This document shows, piece after piece, positions 36,052-47,451 of a stretch of 51,601 nt of DNA. The translations under genes and the position numbers were made by a program. Location: contig JAOZSV010000004.1 in assembly GCA_029939505.1 (NCBI GenBank), forward strand, positions 1 through 51,601. The letters run 5' to 3'. Under the pieces are notes generated by a model. That model did not search any database, had not been told where the DNA came from, and was given only the letters and a program-made list of their open reading frames with translations. The stretch's first letter is position 1, and every line of letters starts with the position of its first letter. The stretch comes from Thiotrichaceae bacterium. GTDB taxonomy: Bacteria > Pseudomonadota > Gammaproteobacteria > Beggiatoales > Beggiatoaceae.

Positions 36052-36502
36052 TATTTTTCTGAACGTCTATAGGTTAGGAGCGAGGGAAATTTAATTAATT
36101 TTAACGTCGCCCCAAAGGGGCTCTAGCCTGGGGTGTGCCCAACGCTAGAAATCCGATTTTTCCCCAAAATCGGATTTCAAGAGTTACGGTGAGATTGACA
36201 ATGGAATAAAACTAGGGTGAAAAATAATCCGTAAAACCACGTCATATTTAACACCCCAGTTTTATCCGTTAATAAAACATTGATAGAGTACTAGTCAAGT
36301 GGGTATAAGTTGTGTCCACCGACATCAGCGAGTGTCTTTACTGGTAACCATATAAAAATAGCGGTATTGCGTTCAAAACTAAGCTTGGTATGGTCTCTGA
36401 CAAAGCTTCGCTTTGAACTCCTTCAGACCCTAATCTCAACAAGGAGAAACAAAGTGATACCAAAAACCAATATGACCAGCCTCAAACGGGAGAAACGAAG
36501 TG
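36052..36502. other. Leader region of the channel gene
   Basis: GCCCCAAAGGGGC and a hairpin AAATCCGATTTTTC-CCC-AAAATCGGATTT at about 36151-36178, then inverse arms GGGTGAAAAAT and ATTTAACACCC (about 36219-36256). GGGAG at 36488-36492 is the likely ribosome-binding site of the next gene. An open frame at 36310-36513 is not supported. Confidence 0.55.
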
Positions 36503-39500
36503 ATGAAACTTAAACGCAATGCGAGGAACGTTGTCGTCGCTCTGGCGATATTGGCATTAGCCTTTGTTATCGCTTCCAAAGCGGGCCTATTTTCTGAACA
36601 GCCGTTTTATATCGCCGTTGTCAGTACGATGAGTGGCGAGTCTCAAGCCAAGGGACAGGCCATGGTCAACGCAATCCGCCTCCAGATTGATCGCGTCAAC
36701 CAGGCCGGTGGCATCAATGGCAAACCAGTCGAATTGCTTGTGTTTGACGACGAAGGCGATCCCATAGTGGCTCAAAAGAAAGCCTCGGAAATTGCAGCGC
36801 AAAATAAAGCCCTTGTGGTGCTTGGGCATTATTTTAGTAACGCCTGTGTTGCAGGGGGGGAAGTTTATCAAAAAGCGGGCATTCCCGCCATTACGCCTTC
36901 ATGTACGGCTGACCGTGTCACGGAAGGCAATGACTGGTATTTTAGAGTCGTTCCCAACAATGGTGCCGAGGGTACGTTTTTGGCCAATTATGCCAAACTG
37001 GTCATGAAACACGACCGAGTCACCATCGTCTATGATGACCAAAATGATTATTCTCGTTCGTTGGCGAATGGTTTTGAAAACCCCTTTCGAGGTTTGCGGG
37101 GAACGATCCAAAATAAATGGATTGTCAATGCCAAAGCGGACAACGCGGATCAGCAGATTGGGGTTATTGCCAAAGCCTTCTTACGGGAAAACCCCGGCTT
37201 GATTTTTCTCGCATTGCAAGCTAATGATGCGAAAAAGCTTATCGTTTCCATCAGACGCAAGGGTTTACAATATCCCATCCTTGGTGGCAATGCGCTGAGT
37301 CAAAAAACCTTCGCGACACTTTTTAATGAATATCCCGAAGAACAAGTACAACCAGGCTATTTTTCGGATGGTATTTATGCGGCCGCGCCCCTGATCTTTG
37401 ATGTGGCGGGTGAACGTTTACAACAAGGCCGAGATCTGTTTATAAAAAGATTTGGCGAAGAACCTAGTTGGGTGGTGGCAACCGCTTTTGAGGCAGTTCA
37501 GGTGGCCATTGAGGCGATTAAAAAGACCAAGATTCAAGGCAAGCCAGAAAATCTGGTCAAAGAACGCCAAAAAATTCGGGATTACTTGGCCAAACGGACT
37601 AGCATGAAGAAGGCCTTTAAAGGCATCAACGGGCCGTTTTACTTTGATAAGCAGGGTAATGCGGTTAAACCCTTAGCCATTGGCGTGTTTAAACATCAAC
37701 AGTTTATCTCGGCTTTGACACAATTTCAGCCGGTGGATGATCTCCAACAGGTTGATCATCTTGAGGAAGAATTAGCGGCCGAACGCATTGTGACTATTGC
37801 CGGACAATATATGTATAAAACCCATATTGTTTACACTGGCATAGATTTCAATGCCGTCAGTGATATTGATGTCAAAAATTCCACTTACCAAATGGATTTT
37901 TACCTGTGGTTTCGCTCTAAAAAAGGGGTTGATGCCAGCGACATTGAATTTATCAATTCGGTCGATTCCTTCCAAAAACTTCAAAATGATCAGGCCATTA
38001 TTGAGGAAACAGTGGTATTGGATAATGCCATTAAGGACCTTGGGGAAGATATAACCTATAAGGCTTATCGTGTGAAAGCTGATTTTAAGGGGCAATTCCA
38101 TTTCAAAGATTACCCCTTTGATAAACAAACATTGGCGGTTCAATTTCGCCATACTAAATTAACTCGCAACAACTTCATCTATGTTGTTGATTTTGTGGGT
38201 ATTGGTGAAACCACCAAACAAGGTATTTTGGCTAAATTGGAACGCAACAATGTTTTCAGTTCTATTAGCGATTGGAAAATCAAGGGTGCGAATTTTTTTC
38301 AGAACATTATGGACAACGAATCCACTTTAGGTAATCCCAATTTGTTTAGAACCGGTTCCCATATTCAGTATTCACAGTTCAATGCTGTCATTAAAATCAA
38401 AAGGGATACACTGGGTTTTCTCACCAAAAACTTGCTACCTCTGTTGTTTTTGGTGGGTATCTCATATTTGATCATGTTTTTACCTTTTGATGAAAATACC
38501 GTTATGGCTATCAGCGGCACTTTGATGGCGGTGGTTTTTTTCCATTTAAGTCTGGCAAGTGCTTTACCTGACGGGATTAGTTATGCGGTGGCATTGGATC
38601 AGGCATTTTATGTCATTTATGGGTTAATTACCTTCCAACTCTTGTTGGTGGTAATTGCTCAACGTGAGACGGTTAACGGCAATGAGATCGCGTTGAAACG
38701 TATTGTTTTGACGGGGCAAGTGGTTTACCCCATCGTGTTTTTAATCGCTGTCATATTAATGGCTGATATCTATGGCGGAATACGCTTATTCCCGGTTCAA
38801 TCTGGTCCAACTTCTGAGGTATCCCAAACCGCTTCTCAAAACCTGACGGCTCCAAAAACCATTGACGAGAAAGTCACTTTGACTTTCGGGGCTTGGCGAA
38901 CAGCAAGGATAGACAAAATCAACCGAGTGCTTGCTGTATTCACTGCACAACATCCCAATATTACCGTCAAACCCCAGCCAGCGGCGGTAAAATGGTATAC
39001 CCCAATGCTGGAATTTCAACTGGAAAAGGGTATCGCGCTGGATGTGTTCTATTTGAGATCATTTTCGCGTTCTCAACCGTTGTTTGAAGCCGGTTATCTG
39101 GAACCACTGGGGAATTTGCCCGGCTTGAAGGAAAACTTTGATCTACCAGCGCGTCAACCTTGGCTATCTGAGAATGGCGAGCCGTATGCGGTACCATTCC
39201 AAGCCGTCTCTCACGGAATATACTACAACATTGATATTTTCAAAGATCTGAACTTGGCTGTTCCCACAACGTGGGAGGCCTTATTGAGCACCGCGCAGGC
39301 CATAAAAAAGGCTGGGTATCTCCCATTTGCCAATGGGATCAAGACGGGTTGGGCAACCTCTGATATTATCTTTATGGGCTTGGCACCCAACTTTATTGGT
39401 GGGCGTGAGGGAAGACAAAAATATGAGTCAGGTGAACGTTGCTTTGACGATGAACACGTTGTCGCTGCGTTTCAAGCGGTCGCTGATCTCGCGCCCTTTT

Positions 39501-40072
39501 TGCCAGACAATCCGGAAGAAATCAGTGTCGGGCAAAGCAAGCAGTTGTTTCTGCAAGGTAAAGTGGCTATGTTTATGGGCAGTTCATTGAACATTTCAGC
39601 TTTTAAACAAGGACGGCCAGACTTTGAATGGGGTATTTTTGCGATACCAGCACTGAAGGGACAACCTGAATATGTCACCTATCATCCGGATTTTGGGATT
39701 GGGCTGAATGCTGCTTCAAAGCATAAGACAGAGGCGAAACTGTTGTTGGAATGGCTTAGTCAACCTGAAACGGGTGAATTATTGAGCAATGAGTTCCCCG
39801 GCTTTTTTCCGATGCATAAAAAAGCACCAACTATCCGTAATAAACACGCGAGGGCCTTTCTGGCGTTGAATGAGGGGCGTGAAACAGACGTGCGTTGGGC
39901 CTTTCCAAAGTTGATGGGTAGATCACCAAACGGTAAGGCACTGATGCAGAATAACACGGCCGCTGTAATCATGGGCCAGAAAACACCTCAAGAAGCAGCC
40001 GAGGCTTTGCAAGATGGATTGGGTCAATGGTTTAAACCGGCCCAAAGATGCTTTCAATTTGCTCAACGTTGA
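36503..40072 (+). CDS. Ligand-gated ion channel flanked by two periplasmic binding domains
   Basis: This 1189-residue fusion reads in order: membrane anchor or signal (about 10-27); branched-chain-amino-acid-type binding protein (about 34-405; FYIAVVSTMSGESQAKGQAM, VNQAGGINGKPVELLVFDDE, GHYFSNACVAGGEVYQ); pentameric ligand-gated channel (ligand domain about 437-634 with VSDIDVKNSTYQMDFYLWF and the Pro-loop YPFDKQTLAVQF at 537-548, no Cys pair); membrane helices at about 642-660, 665-689, 692-719 and 733-756; a linker; a sugar-type family 1 binding protein (about 787-1185; VPFQAVSHGIYYNIDIFKDL, FIGGREGRQKYES). Channel topology puts both ends of the core, hence both binding domains, in the periplasm. 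Acidic Asp663-Glu664 before helix 2 favour cation selectivity (inference). ATG 36503 has GGGAG upstream; GTG 36500 is possible. Ligands are unknown. The frame is intact, so it is probably functional. Confidence 0.9.
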   Translation: MKLKRNARNVVVALAILALAFVIASKAGLFSEQPFYIAVVSTMSGESQAKGQAMVNAIRLQIDRVNQAGGINGKPVELLVFDDEGDPIVAQKKASEIAAQNKALVVLGHYFSNACVAGGEVYQKAGIPAITPSCTADRVTEGNDWYFRVVPNNGAEGTFLANYAKLVMKHDRVTIVYDDQNDYSRSLANGFENPFRGLRGTIQNKWIVNAKADNADQQIGVIAKAFLRENPGLIFLALQANDAKKLIVSIRRKGLQYPILGGNALSQKTFATLFNEYPEEQVQPGYFSDGIYAAAPLIFDVAGERLQQGRDLFIKRFGEEPSWVVATAFEAVQVAIEAIKKTKIQGKPENLVKERQKIRDYLAKRTSMKKAFKGINGPFYFDKQGNAVKPLAIGVFKHQQFISALTQFQPVDDLQQVDHLEEELAAERIVTIAGQYMYKTHIVYTGIDFNAVSDIDVKNSTYQMDFYLWFRSKKGVDASDIEFINSVDSFQKLQNDQAIIEETVVLDNAIKDLGEDITYKAYRVKADFKGQFHFKDYPFDKQTLAVQFRHTKLTRNNFIYVVDFVGIGETTKQGILAKLERNNVFSSISDWKIKGANFFQNIMDNESTLGNPNLFRTGSHIQYSQFNAVIKIKRDTLGFLTKNLLPLLFLVGISYLIMFLPFDENTVMAISGTLMAVVFFHLSLASALPDGISYAVALDQAFYVIYGLITFQLLLVVIAQRETVNGNEIALKRIVLTGQVVYPIVFLIAVILMADIYGGIRLFPVQSGPTSEVSQTASQNLTAPKTIDEKVTLTFGAWRTARIDKINRVLAVFTAQHPNITVKPQPAAVKWYTPMLEFQLEKGIALDVFYLRSFSRSQPLFEAGYLEPLGNLPGLKENFDLPARQPWLSENGEPYAVPFQAVSHGIYYNIDIFKDLNLAVPTTWEALLSTAQAIKKAGYLPFANGIKTGWATSDIIFMGLAPNFIGGREGRQKYESGERCFDDEHVVAAFQAVADLAPFLPDNPEEISVGQSKQLFLQGKVAMFMGSSLNISAFKQGRPDFEWGIFAIPALKGQPEYVTYHPDFGIGLNAASKHKTEAKLLLEWLSQPETGELLSNEFPGFFPMHKKAPTIRNKHARAFLALNEGRETDVRWAFPKLMGRSPNGKALMQNNTAAVIMGQKTPQEAAEALQDGLGQWFKPAQRCFQFAQR

Positions 40073-46311: not shown

Positions 46312-46390
46312 AGTGGGCAAGGTATTTTTTGTGCAACGGCACTTTTTTAATGAGGAAGCCGTTGCACTAAAAAGACTTTGCCCACCCTAC
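46312..46390. repeat. Family A element with an inner hairpin
   Basis: GTGGGCAAGGTATTTTTT on the left and AAAAGACTTTGCCCACCCTA on the right enclose GTGCAACGGC ... GCCGTTGCAC, a 10-bp perfect inner stem. The element's outer edge supplies the TAG stop of the adenylate cyclase gene. Confidence 0.8.
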
Positions 46391-47451
46391 TTTACTACAT
46401 GACTACTAATCTTATACACCGTTTGAGGACCGTCAATCCCTTTAAGATTGACAGAATGGCGATTCAGATTTTTCAGGCCCCGTTCTTTCAAACATTGCAT
46501 AAATACAGCGTCTTGATATACTTGTTCAGAGAAGCAAATTTCACCACTCTTAGCGATGGCTTGAATACGCGCTGCTTTATTAATCGTCGAACCAAAATAA
46601 TCAAGTCTCTCATTAAGATTGACCAAAATTGCAGGTCCTCGATGAATACCAATTTTGATATGAACTTGTTCATCAGTACAGTGCTTATTATTGTATTGTC
46701 TAAACTGTTCAAGGGCATCAATAATCGCTCTGAGTGCCAACTCGTTGCGAATAAATGAAGCCATTACTGCATCGCCTATCGTTTTAAGAATTGTCCCGCC
46801 TTGTTTTTCGGTTTGCTCAAACAAAATATCAAAATGGTCACGGACAATATTATAAGCCAGCACATCACCCAGTTTTTCGTACATTTCTGTTGAGCCAGTA
46901 ATATCTGTAAATAAAACCGTGACAGAGGCGATTTGCATTTGCTCACGATCAGATAAAACTTGTTCGCCAAATAGGGTACGAAATATCGGATAGTGAATGA
47001 GTTCTAAACCAGATAGGAGTGGGGGTGATGCGAAACCTTCTGCATATAACGGCGTAAATTTGCGATCATCAATTTCTTTATTAAGCGAAAAAGTGACTTC
47101 AATCCACCGCGCAAAATCGGTTTCAAATTCCTTTTTGCACCCTTCGCAATAAGAGAGCCTAGACGCTTTGGATAACTGTTGATAATCCTCAGTAATGGTA
47201 TGGCACTGTGGACAATGTACTTCCCAATTGAGATCAAATAAGCCGTCTAAGACACCATATAAAAACTCTGGTACAACTTGGTTCACCGATAAGTTGGCAT
47301 ACTTTGCTACATCAACAGGACTAATCCGTTGTTTTGGCAATTTTTTTTCAAACTCTAGCACCCAACGTTGTATCGCTTCCACTGCGGGTATGAAAGCGGA
47401 TGGCCTTTTTTTAAGTATTTCTAGCTTTTGTAAAAATAAATAGGTATTCAT
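46387..47451 (-). CDS. Class III adenylate cyclase with zinc-ribbon N-terminus
   Basis: The enzyme would make cAMP from ATP. In 354 residues, an N-terminal region carries a zinc ribbon (CPQC at 80-83 and CEGC at 102-105), followed by a class III cyclase domain from about 174. Both metal-binding Asp are present (Asp183 in FTDITGS, Asp227 in KTIGDAVM). Lys223 and Asp284 (DYFGSTIN) are the adenine-specifying pair, and Asn291 and Arg295 complete the site. There is no membrane segment, so it is cytoplasmic. The start is ATG 47451, preceded by a GGTGAAT heptamer repeat. The stop lies in a family A repeat. No receptor or cAMP-binding protein is adjacent. Confidence 0.93.
   Translation of the reverse strand: MNTYLFLQKLEILKKRPSAFIPAVEAIQRWVLEFEKKLPKQRISPVDVAKYANLSVNQVVPEFLYGVLDGLFDLNWEVHCPQCHTITEDYQQLSKASRLSYCEGCKKEFETDFARWIEVTFSLNKEIDDRKFTPLYAEGFASPPLLSGLELIHYPIFRTLFGEQVLSDREQMQIASVTVLFTDITGSTEMYEKLGDVLAYNIVRDHFDILFEQTEKQGGTILKTIGDAVMASFIRNELALRAIIDALEQFRQYNNKHCTDEQVHIKIGIHRGPAILVNLNERLDYFGSTINKAARIQAIAKSGEICFSEQVYQDAVFMQCLKERGLKNLNRHSVNLKGIDGPQTVYKISSHVVK

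Follow-up and report, generated by a model that had tools for sequence, protein, structure and literature searches.

Within a window of 51,601 nucleotides (the whole stretch of DNA analysed, positions 1 to 51,601 of contig JAOZSV010000004.1, assembly GCA_029939505.1, from a Thiotrichaceae bacterium) we found a gene whose product is, by homology, a Pro-loop ion channel bearing two different binding domains, one on each side of the channel part. The gene lies on the forward strand, as do all its features given below, and occupies positions 36503-40069 as a single open frame of 1189 codons, uninterrupted as the original prediction had claimed. It starts with ATG at 36503 and stops at 40070-40072; a GTG at 36500 is a possible alternative start. 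A plausible ribosome-binding site, GGGAG (36488-36492, found by eye), lies 10 bases 5' of the ATG. Residues 1-32 (36503-36598) form a putative N-terminal signal anchor or signal peptide, hydrophobic over residues 5-32, with 4 Lys/Arg in residues 1-9 and a helix at residues 2-26 of the structure model described below.

The first domain is of the type I periplasmic-binding protein kind (PBP-I; residues 33-425, 36599-37777). Residues 36-394 matched Peripla_BP_6 in Pfam (E 1.7e-38; 133.6 bits, cut-off 31.7), and phmmer matched the clamshell to the structure 4gnr (E 2.1e-26). Superposition with VIA-align 2 placed residues 34-412 on LivK 3td9 (Z 43.5, root-mean-square deviation 2.2, 348 residues aligned) and the same clamshell on LivJ 4gnr (Z 42.6, deviation 2.2, 347 aligned); the clamshell is LivJ-like. 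At the other end, a type II domain (PBP-II; residues 788-1183, 38864-40051) also exceeded its Pfam cut-off, with SBP_bac_1 matching residues 808-1090 (E 4.7e-31; 109.4 bits, cut-off 26), and residues 791-1179 superposed on the chitin-oligosaccharide-binding protein 7eho (Z 41.2, deviation 2.3, 379 aligned). This domain had been predicted as "sugar-type (family 1)". A second, different binding domain is indeed present, while "sugar" is a family name only; NCBIfam carbohydrate-binding models scored far below cut-off on it (48.5 against 299 bits).

The channel part lies between the two clamshells and begins with a Pro-loop ligand-binding (extracellular) domain (residues 432-635, 37796-38407), beta-rich in the model. 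The Pfam models Neur_chan_LBD and Neur_chan_memb, with which this part had been expected to be found, gave no match to the protein at E <= 1. Sub-threshold matches of the Neur_chan models were obtained on two paralogues of the same genome that belong to the two-part class defined below, and PF02931 had one sub-threshold place in this genome, other than the gene described here; these models seem to reach this branch of channels poorly. Because Pfam names no Neur_chan domain, the channel identity rests on phmmer, which matched residues 525-759 to the solved proton-gated channel GLIC (E 3.5e-7), and on a profile built from 45 of 60 available homologous middle parts, which matched GLIC chains over positions 12-311 of its 313 (E 1.4e-21).

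Features that mark homology to the pentameric ligand-gated ion channels (pLGIC) were found, namely a ligand domain followed by four helices, the Pro and Asp of the Pro-loop and the arginine before the first membrane helix (M1). The Pro-loop reads YPFD (residues 537-540, 38111-38122), each letter being kept in 18/18 frames of the same three-part order (fused frames, including this one), and the pre-M1 arginine is Arg634 (38402-38404). M1 (residues 636-657, 38408-38473) is seen in the model and in hydropathy, and M2, the expected pore helix (667-687, 38501-38563), in the model and in the alignment of frames; M3 with its cytoplasmic end (693-725, 38579-38677) and M4 (728-757, 38684-38773) follow. 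Asp663 and Glu664, which precede M2, and His681 within it are kept in 18/18 fused frames. Bacterial Pro-loop channels are expected to lack the cysteine pair of the Cys-loop, and it is absent here, the only cysteines of the protein being at residues 115, 134, 980 and 1183.

We obtained an AlphaFold2 model of one chain (mean predicted local distance difference test score, pLDDT, 85.3; predicted template modelling score, pTM, 0.80). It contains helices at exactly the four spans given above and two clamshells, one on each side of the channel part. The span originally predicted for the channel, residues 437-756, fits. Residues 760-787 are disordered (pLDDT <50) and make up most of a poorly conserved flexible linker (residues 758-787, 38774-38863). 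Searches with the whole model by Foldseek and VIA-align gave clamshell structures only among the matches listed (best 50 each), and are uninformative on the channel part.

Pro-loop channels have both termini outside the cytoplasm. In agreement with this, the M2-M3 loop carries zero Lys/Arg in 14/14 aligned rows and the M3-M4 loop, which is short in this protein (residues 717-735 as cut here), carries 2 to 12. Two cysteines of the C-terminal domain are kept across the fused frames, Cys980 (39440-39442) in 18/18 and its proposed disulfide partner Cys1183 (40049-40051) in all 16 that reach it, two being cut; such a pair, if formed, would suit an oxidising compartment. In addition, 5/5 Chloroflexota fused frames with an N-terminus show, by eye, a lipobox-like start ending in Cys. 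Because of the loop charges, the cysteine pair and these lipobox-like starts, both ends, and so both clamshells, are probably extracytoplasmic, and the earlier placement of both termini outside now appears very probable.

Distribution and history of the fusion

The three-part fused channel is real and conserved. Full-length homologues were found at 46-64% identity (57 genomes searched, the own genome and relatives), and the three-part order in 6/42 genomes: the own genome, G019 (three copies), G033, G061 (cut by a contig end), G034 (two copies) and G021. A scan of named genomes, of which the best 80 of 180 confirmed stretches were kept as 78 loci, showed the order in records of Candidatus Parabeggiatoa, Candidatus Halobeggiatoa, Thioploca, a Pseudanabaenaceae cyanobacterium and Chloroflexota assemblies. 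Class-wide searches gave full-length matches in two of 396 genomes (G063 and G414) and in two of 388 (G068 and G777, the latter with two tandem copies), and G414 and G777 joined the genomes with the fusion; as these searches scored at most two candidates per genome, such counts of breadth are lower bounds. The search for the same three-part order called for at the outset thus returned 17 further frames, making 18 distinct fused frames across the sulfur-oxidising Beggiatoa group, Cyanobacteria and Chloroflexota, 3 of which (L043, L073 and L110) run into contig ends.

We classified the frames of the 78 loci with profiles derived from the fused frames themselves, so that the matches of fused frames to these profiles are by construction. 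Results showed 13 fused frames, 53 two-part frames (PBP-I and ligand domain present, with neither a solute-binding protein (SBP) match nor an MscS match) and 27 MscS chimeras, described below. Four of the 53 two-part frames had no match to the four-helix profile, and two of these (L094 and L107) end at a sequence end. The fused channel is a member of a large family that includes the MscS chimeras, and not a lone curiosity. The own genome holds two two-part frames (contigs C180 and C476), the fused one of the window and two MscS chimeras (C359). It also has a dCache-type sensor preceding a weak Pro-loop channel match (L039:1478-3448, G000:C131).

The trees of the C-terminal domain and of the channel core disagree on a single origin, with long branches in play. 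In the SBP tree (37 rows) the 18 fused domains all fall on one side of a branch with support 98/99. In the core tree (87 rows, MscS chimeras limited to 8) fused frames are interspersed with two-part ones, and a core tree with the fused frames in one clade, including the copy at L028:13465, was rejected by the approximately unbiased test (p-AU 0.0002, LG+G4) on 39 rows picked after inspecting the core tree. That copy (L028:13465-15780) stands with two fused channels in an array in G019 (L028:614-15780, contig C248); it lacks the C-terminal domain and stops right after M4. One fusion followed by repeated loss, loss and regain, exchange of cores and several fusions are all possible histories.

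Linker, C-terminal domain and neighbouring genes

We compared the parts of 8 Beggiatoa-group fused frames by mean pairwise identity. The C-terminal domain (57.5%) ranges with the ligand domain (59.9%), the helices (57.0%) and the first clamshell (51.1%), and the linker stands at 25.0%, suggesting that the C-terminal domain is under constraint like the core. Across 14 rows the linker after M4 is 25-40 residues long.

Gene neighbours revealed a related pattern. An SBP_bac_5 gene, encoding a PBP-II of another family, lies directly upstream of 28/53 two-part frames and of 0/13 fused frames (0/9 with enough upstream DNA); the contrast gives a Fisher p of 0.002 on 9 fused against 51 two-part frames, uncorrected for kinship. 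In the own genome, both two-part frames have this neighbour as well. It would seem from this pattern that the fused C-terminal domain substitutes for a PBP-II partner encoded separately. Ten of these 28 SBP_bac_5 proteins also carry a PBP-I stretch. Such double proteins (for example L064:4818-7592, L075:1974-4772 and L083:2081-4822) are followed by one channel gene or by two, and occur mostly in Desulfobacterales records.

We also looked at the nearest solo relatives of the C-terminal domain, SBP_bac_1 proteins of Chloroflexota (class of G063; L122-L130 and L142), 49-56% identical to it but unfused to any channel. In nine neighbourhoods of solo relatives (L140-L146, L152 and L153) an ABC (ATP-binding cassette) permease pair was present in 6/9, a URO-D/MtaA-like (methyltransferase-like) gene in 6/9 and a hybrid histidine kinase in 2/9. 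The URO-D/MtaA-like gene lies near the solo proteins of L140, L141, L143, L144, L145 and L152, with ABC permeases in five of these six, and a RACo-type corrinoid-reactivating protein follows in L140 and L141. Since L140 and L141 are near-copies and L144 is at a contig end, the independent cases are fewer than nine. Because of the URO-D/MtaA-like and RACo neighbours, the surroundings of the solo proteins hint at methylated compounds, perhaps for uptake, rather than sugars, as a lead and not a result. Some genomes of the same Chloroflexota class also encode proteins in which SBP_bac_1-like domains are repeated in tandem, two or three to a chain (L147:8070-11921, L148:6436-10374 and L154:7985-10918). 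In the window itself, an adenylate/guanylate cyclase domain protein is encoded on the reverse strand about 6 kb from the channel gene (46390-47451; Pfam E 1.2e-21).

Coupling residues and the MscS chimeras

In the 27 MscS chimeras a PBP-I and a Pro-loop ligand domain are followed by an MscS channel that replaces the Pro-loop pore. They sit in 20 loci of L041-L118 and are paired in 7/20; a cyclic-nucleotide-binding domain is present in 17/27, the other 10 being without it, some cut by contig ends. One chimera comes from a complete genome (L098:4968-8444, Desulfonema magnum chromosome NZ_CP061800.1), and the own genome carries a pair named by Pfam (L035:6325-9792 and L035:10088-13048).

By profile comparison, chimeras and channels plainly share one and the same ligand domain. 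Aligned by hhalign, the two profiles gave a probability of 100, E 3.1e-69 and 37% identity (20/27 chimera rows). A profile of the chimeras' ligand domain by itself, likewise from 20/27 rows, found no match among solved structures at E <= 10, and the kinship therefore rests on the profile-profile comparison. A structure model of a chimera was weak (mean pLDDT 68.4, pTM 0.49).

We then asked what becomes of Pro538, Asp540 and Arg634, which we take to be the residues that couple the ligand domain to the pore in the pLGIC superfamily. Each is kept in 18/18 fused frames, and the equivalents are kept in 51, 45 and 51 of 53 two-part frames. In the MscS chimeras they are found in 1, 1 and 0 of 27 (one row being gapped at the Pro column), and Trp469, Arg471, Asp563 and Trp591 are kept in 27/27 of these same frames. 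The chimeras are thus a natural control, because the interface residues are kept where a Pro-loop pore follows and lost in nearly all chimeras; the coupling residues that the fused channels keep are just those that go missing where a Pro-loop pore is absent. The protein of the window is, on homology and preserved coupling residues, a probable channel. Moreover, the clamshell-plus-Pro-loop sensor may be a module exchanged between unrelated pores, as seen on MscS channels with cyclic-nucleotide domains.

A model for a channel with two receptors

The best explanation, to which we give slightly more than an even chance, takes the protein for an inner-membrane Pro-loop channel made of five identical subunits, each with a second receptor that is tethered and docks, the whole responding to two solutes. 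It draws on the order of the domains, their homology, the predicted fold, conservation, signs of topology, the interface residues and the neighbour pattern. The gene product would be the subunit, presenting a LivJ-type clamshell ahead of the channel's ligand domain and an SBP_bac_1 clamshell held to the periplasmic end of M4 on a floppy tether of about 30 residues. The tethered clamshell would replace the separate PBP-II protein whose gene neighbours many two-part relatives; once closed around its ligand, it could approach the ligand domain or the first clamshell laterally or from above and dock there. Docking would shift the chance of pore opening, and the membrane would thereby respond to two solutes, a two-ligand mechanism that is plausible.

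Several observations weigh against this model. M2 of the protein is mostly hydrophobic (by our own count 2' and 9' are M, 6' is G and 13' is F) and shorter by one or two residues than that of its relatives, so that the kept coupling residues are no proof of conduction. As for the first ligand, the Ser and Thr aligned with the presumed carboxylate binders of LivJ are kept, but the acid that presumably holds the amino group in LivJ-type proteins is Asn264 here, and three close relatives (L028:614, L028:8861 and L029:3667) carry a deletion or changes in this stretch. Finally, 25/53 two-part frames have no SBP_bac_5 gene directly upstream: another channel gene precedes 8 of them, the DNA is too short for 2, and neither applies to 15, which include 7 cyanobacterial loci.

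Other modes of action were considered. The C-terminal clamshell could be a rigid allosteric module that pulls on M4 when it closes, so that pore gating is direct, by way of the membrane helices. Its point of attachment is M4 itself, and M4 of animal pLGICs is described, in the parts of that literature used here, as a lipid sensor that matters for assembly and gating. However, a linker that is disordered in the model, 25-40 residues long and among the least conserved parts of the protein would be a poor lever, which makes this mode rather unlikely; because the linker is so long and so poorly conserved, we favour the tethered docking receptor. The clamshell could also concentrate ligand for the channel's own ligand domain, with no integration of two signals. 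This role was proposed by Tasneem and others for fused and operonic binding domains (PMC549065, in the sections used here), and the ABC permeases beside 6/9 solo relatives would suit it, but one tethered copy per subunit would be a weak concentrator and the two clamshells come from different families; we regard it as having an equally small chance.

That the membrane part has ceased to conduct, the protein being a sensor or scaffold that relays a change of shape to partners, would agree with the hydrophobic face of M2 and with the transfer of the ligand domain to another membrane module in the MscS chimeras. The gating-interface residues kept in 18/18 fused frames, the short M3-M4 loop and the absence of a cytoplasmic signalling domain speak against it, and we consider it quite improbable. 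An artefact, in which misassembly or a frameshift joined separate genes of a draft genome of 497 contigs, was rejected as next to impossible because 17 further frames, in other assemblies and three phyla, share the order.

The docking model also has to be set against known systems. A paper of 2004 (Tasneem et al., PMC549065) described operonic binding proteins and N-terminal PBP-I fusions to bacterial ART-LGIC, the latter being of the kind that the original prediction had mentioned. In the sections of that paper used here, a PBP-I likewise precedes the Pro-loop ligand domain and four helices and PBP-II genes are neighbours in other species, but no domain after M4 is mentioned, where the protein of the window has a fused PBP-II. 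GLIC, the Gloeobacter proton-gated channel, shares the ligand domain and four helices (the profile match given above), whereas its solved chains of about 317 residues carry neither binding domain. DeCLIC is likewise a prokaryotic Pro-loop channel with added extracellular domains, but its extras are two N-terminal jelly-roll lobes, and the passages used of its descriptions mention nothing after M4 (PMC9897478, PMC12664993). In an inventory of Pro-loop channels (PMC4795631) the words periplasmic, fused, C-terminal, PBP, Cache and MscS are absent from the text available. No C-terminal binding-domain fusion had been known to the original prediction, and a search of open-literature titles and abstract starts, with subscription papers and preprints outside it, gave none among the papers listed, nor any such MscS chimera.

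The parallel with animal ionotropic glutamate receptors (iGluRs), drawn at the outset, holds in so far as a single channel subunit there also bears both a PBP-I and a PBP-II domain (PMC549065, as far as used here). It is a resemblance only: in iGluRs the pore is inserted into the PBP-II, whereas here no pore was found between PBP-II halves, the PBP-II being continuous (residues 788-1183) after Pro-loop-type helices. Rather tentatively, at somewhat less than even chances, we propose a new class of ligand-gated channel architecture in which a Pro-loop pentamer would carry ten clamshells of two kinds, the second, after M4, being a built-in soluble receptor that would give the membrane a two-signal logic.

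MscS is a heptamer and Pro-loop channels are pentamers. The chimeras join parts of these two types, and they let one see, as a natural test, which ligand-domain residues communicate with the pore. Bacterial Pro-loop channels serve as models for nerve receptors and, to our knowledge, the natural ligands and jobs of most of them are unknown. Two built-in binding proteins of well-understood families offer a direct route to natural ligands, and the fused channel lets one ask how added domains steer gating. The presence of this order in the Beggiatoa group and in two other phyla suggests channels that read two chemical signals.

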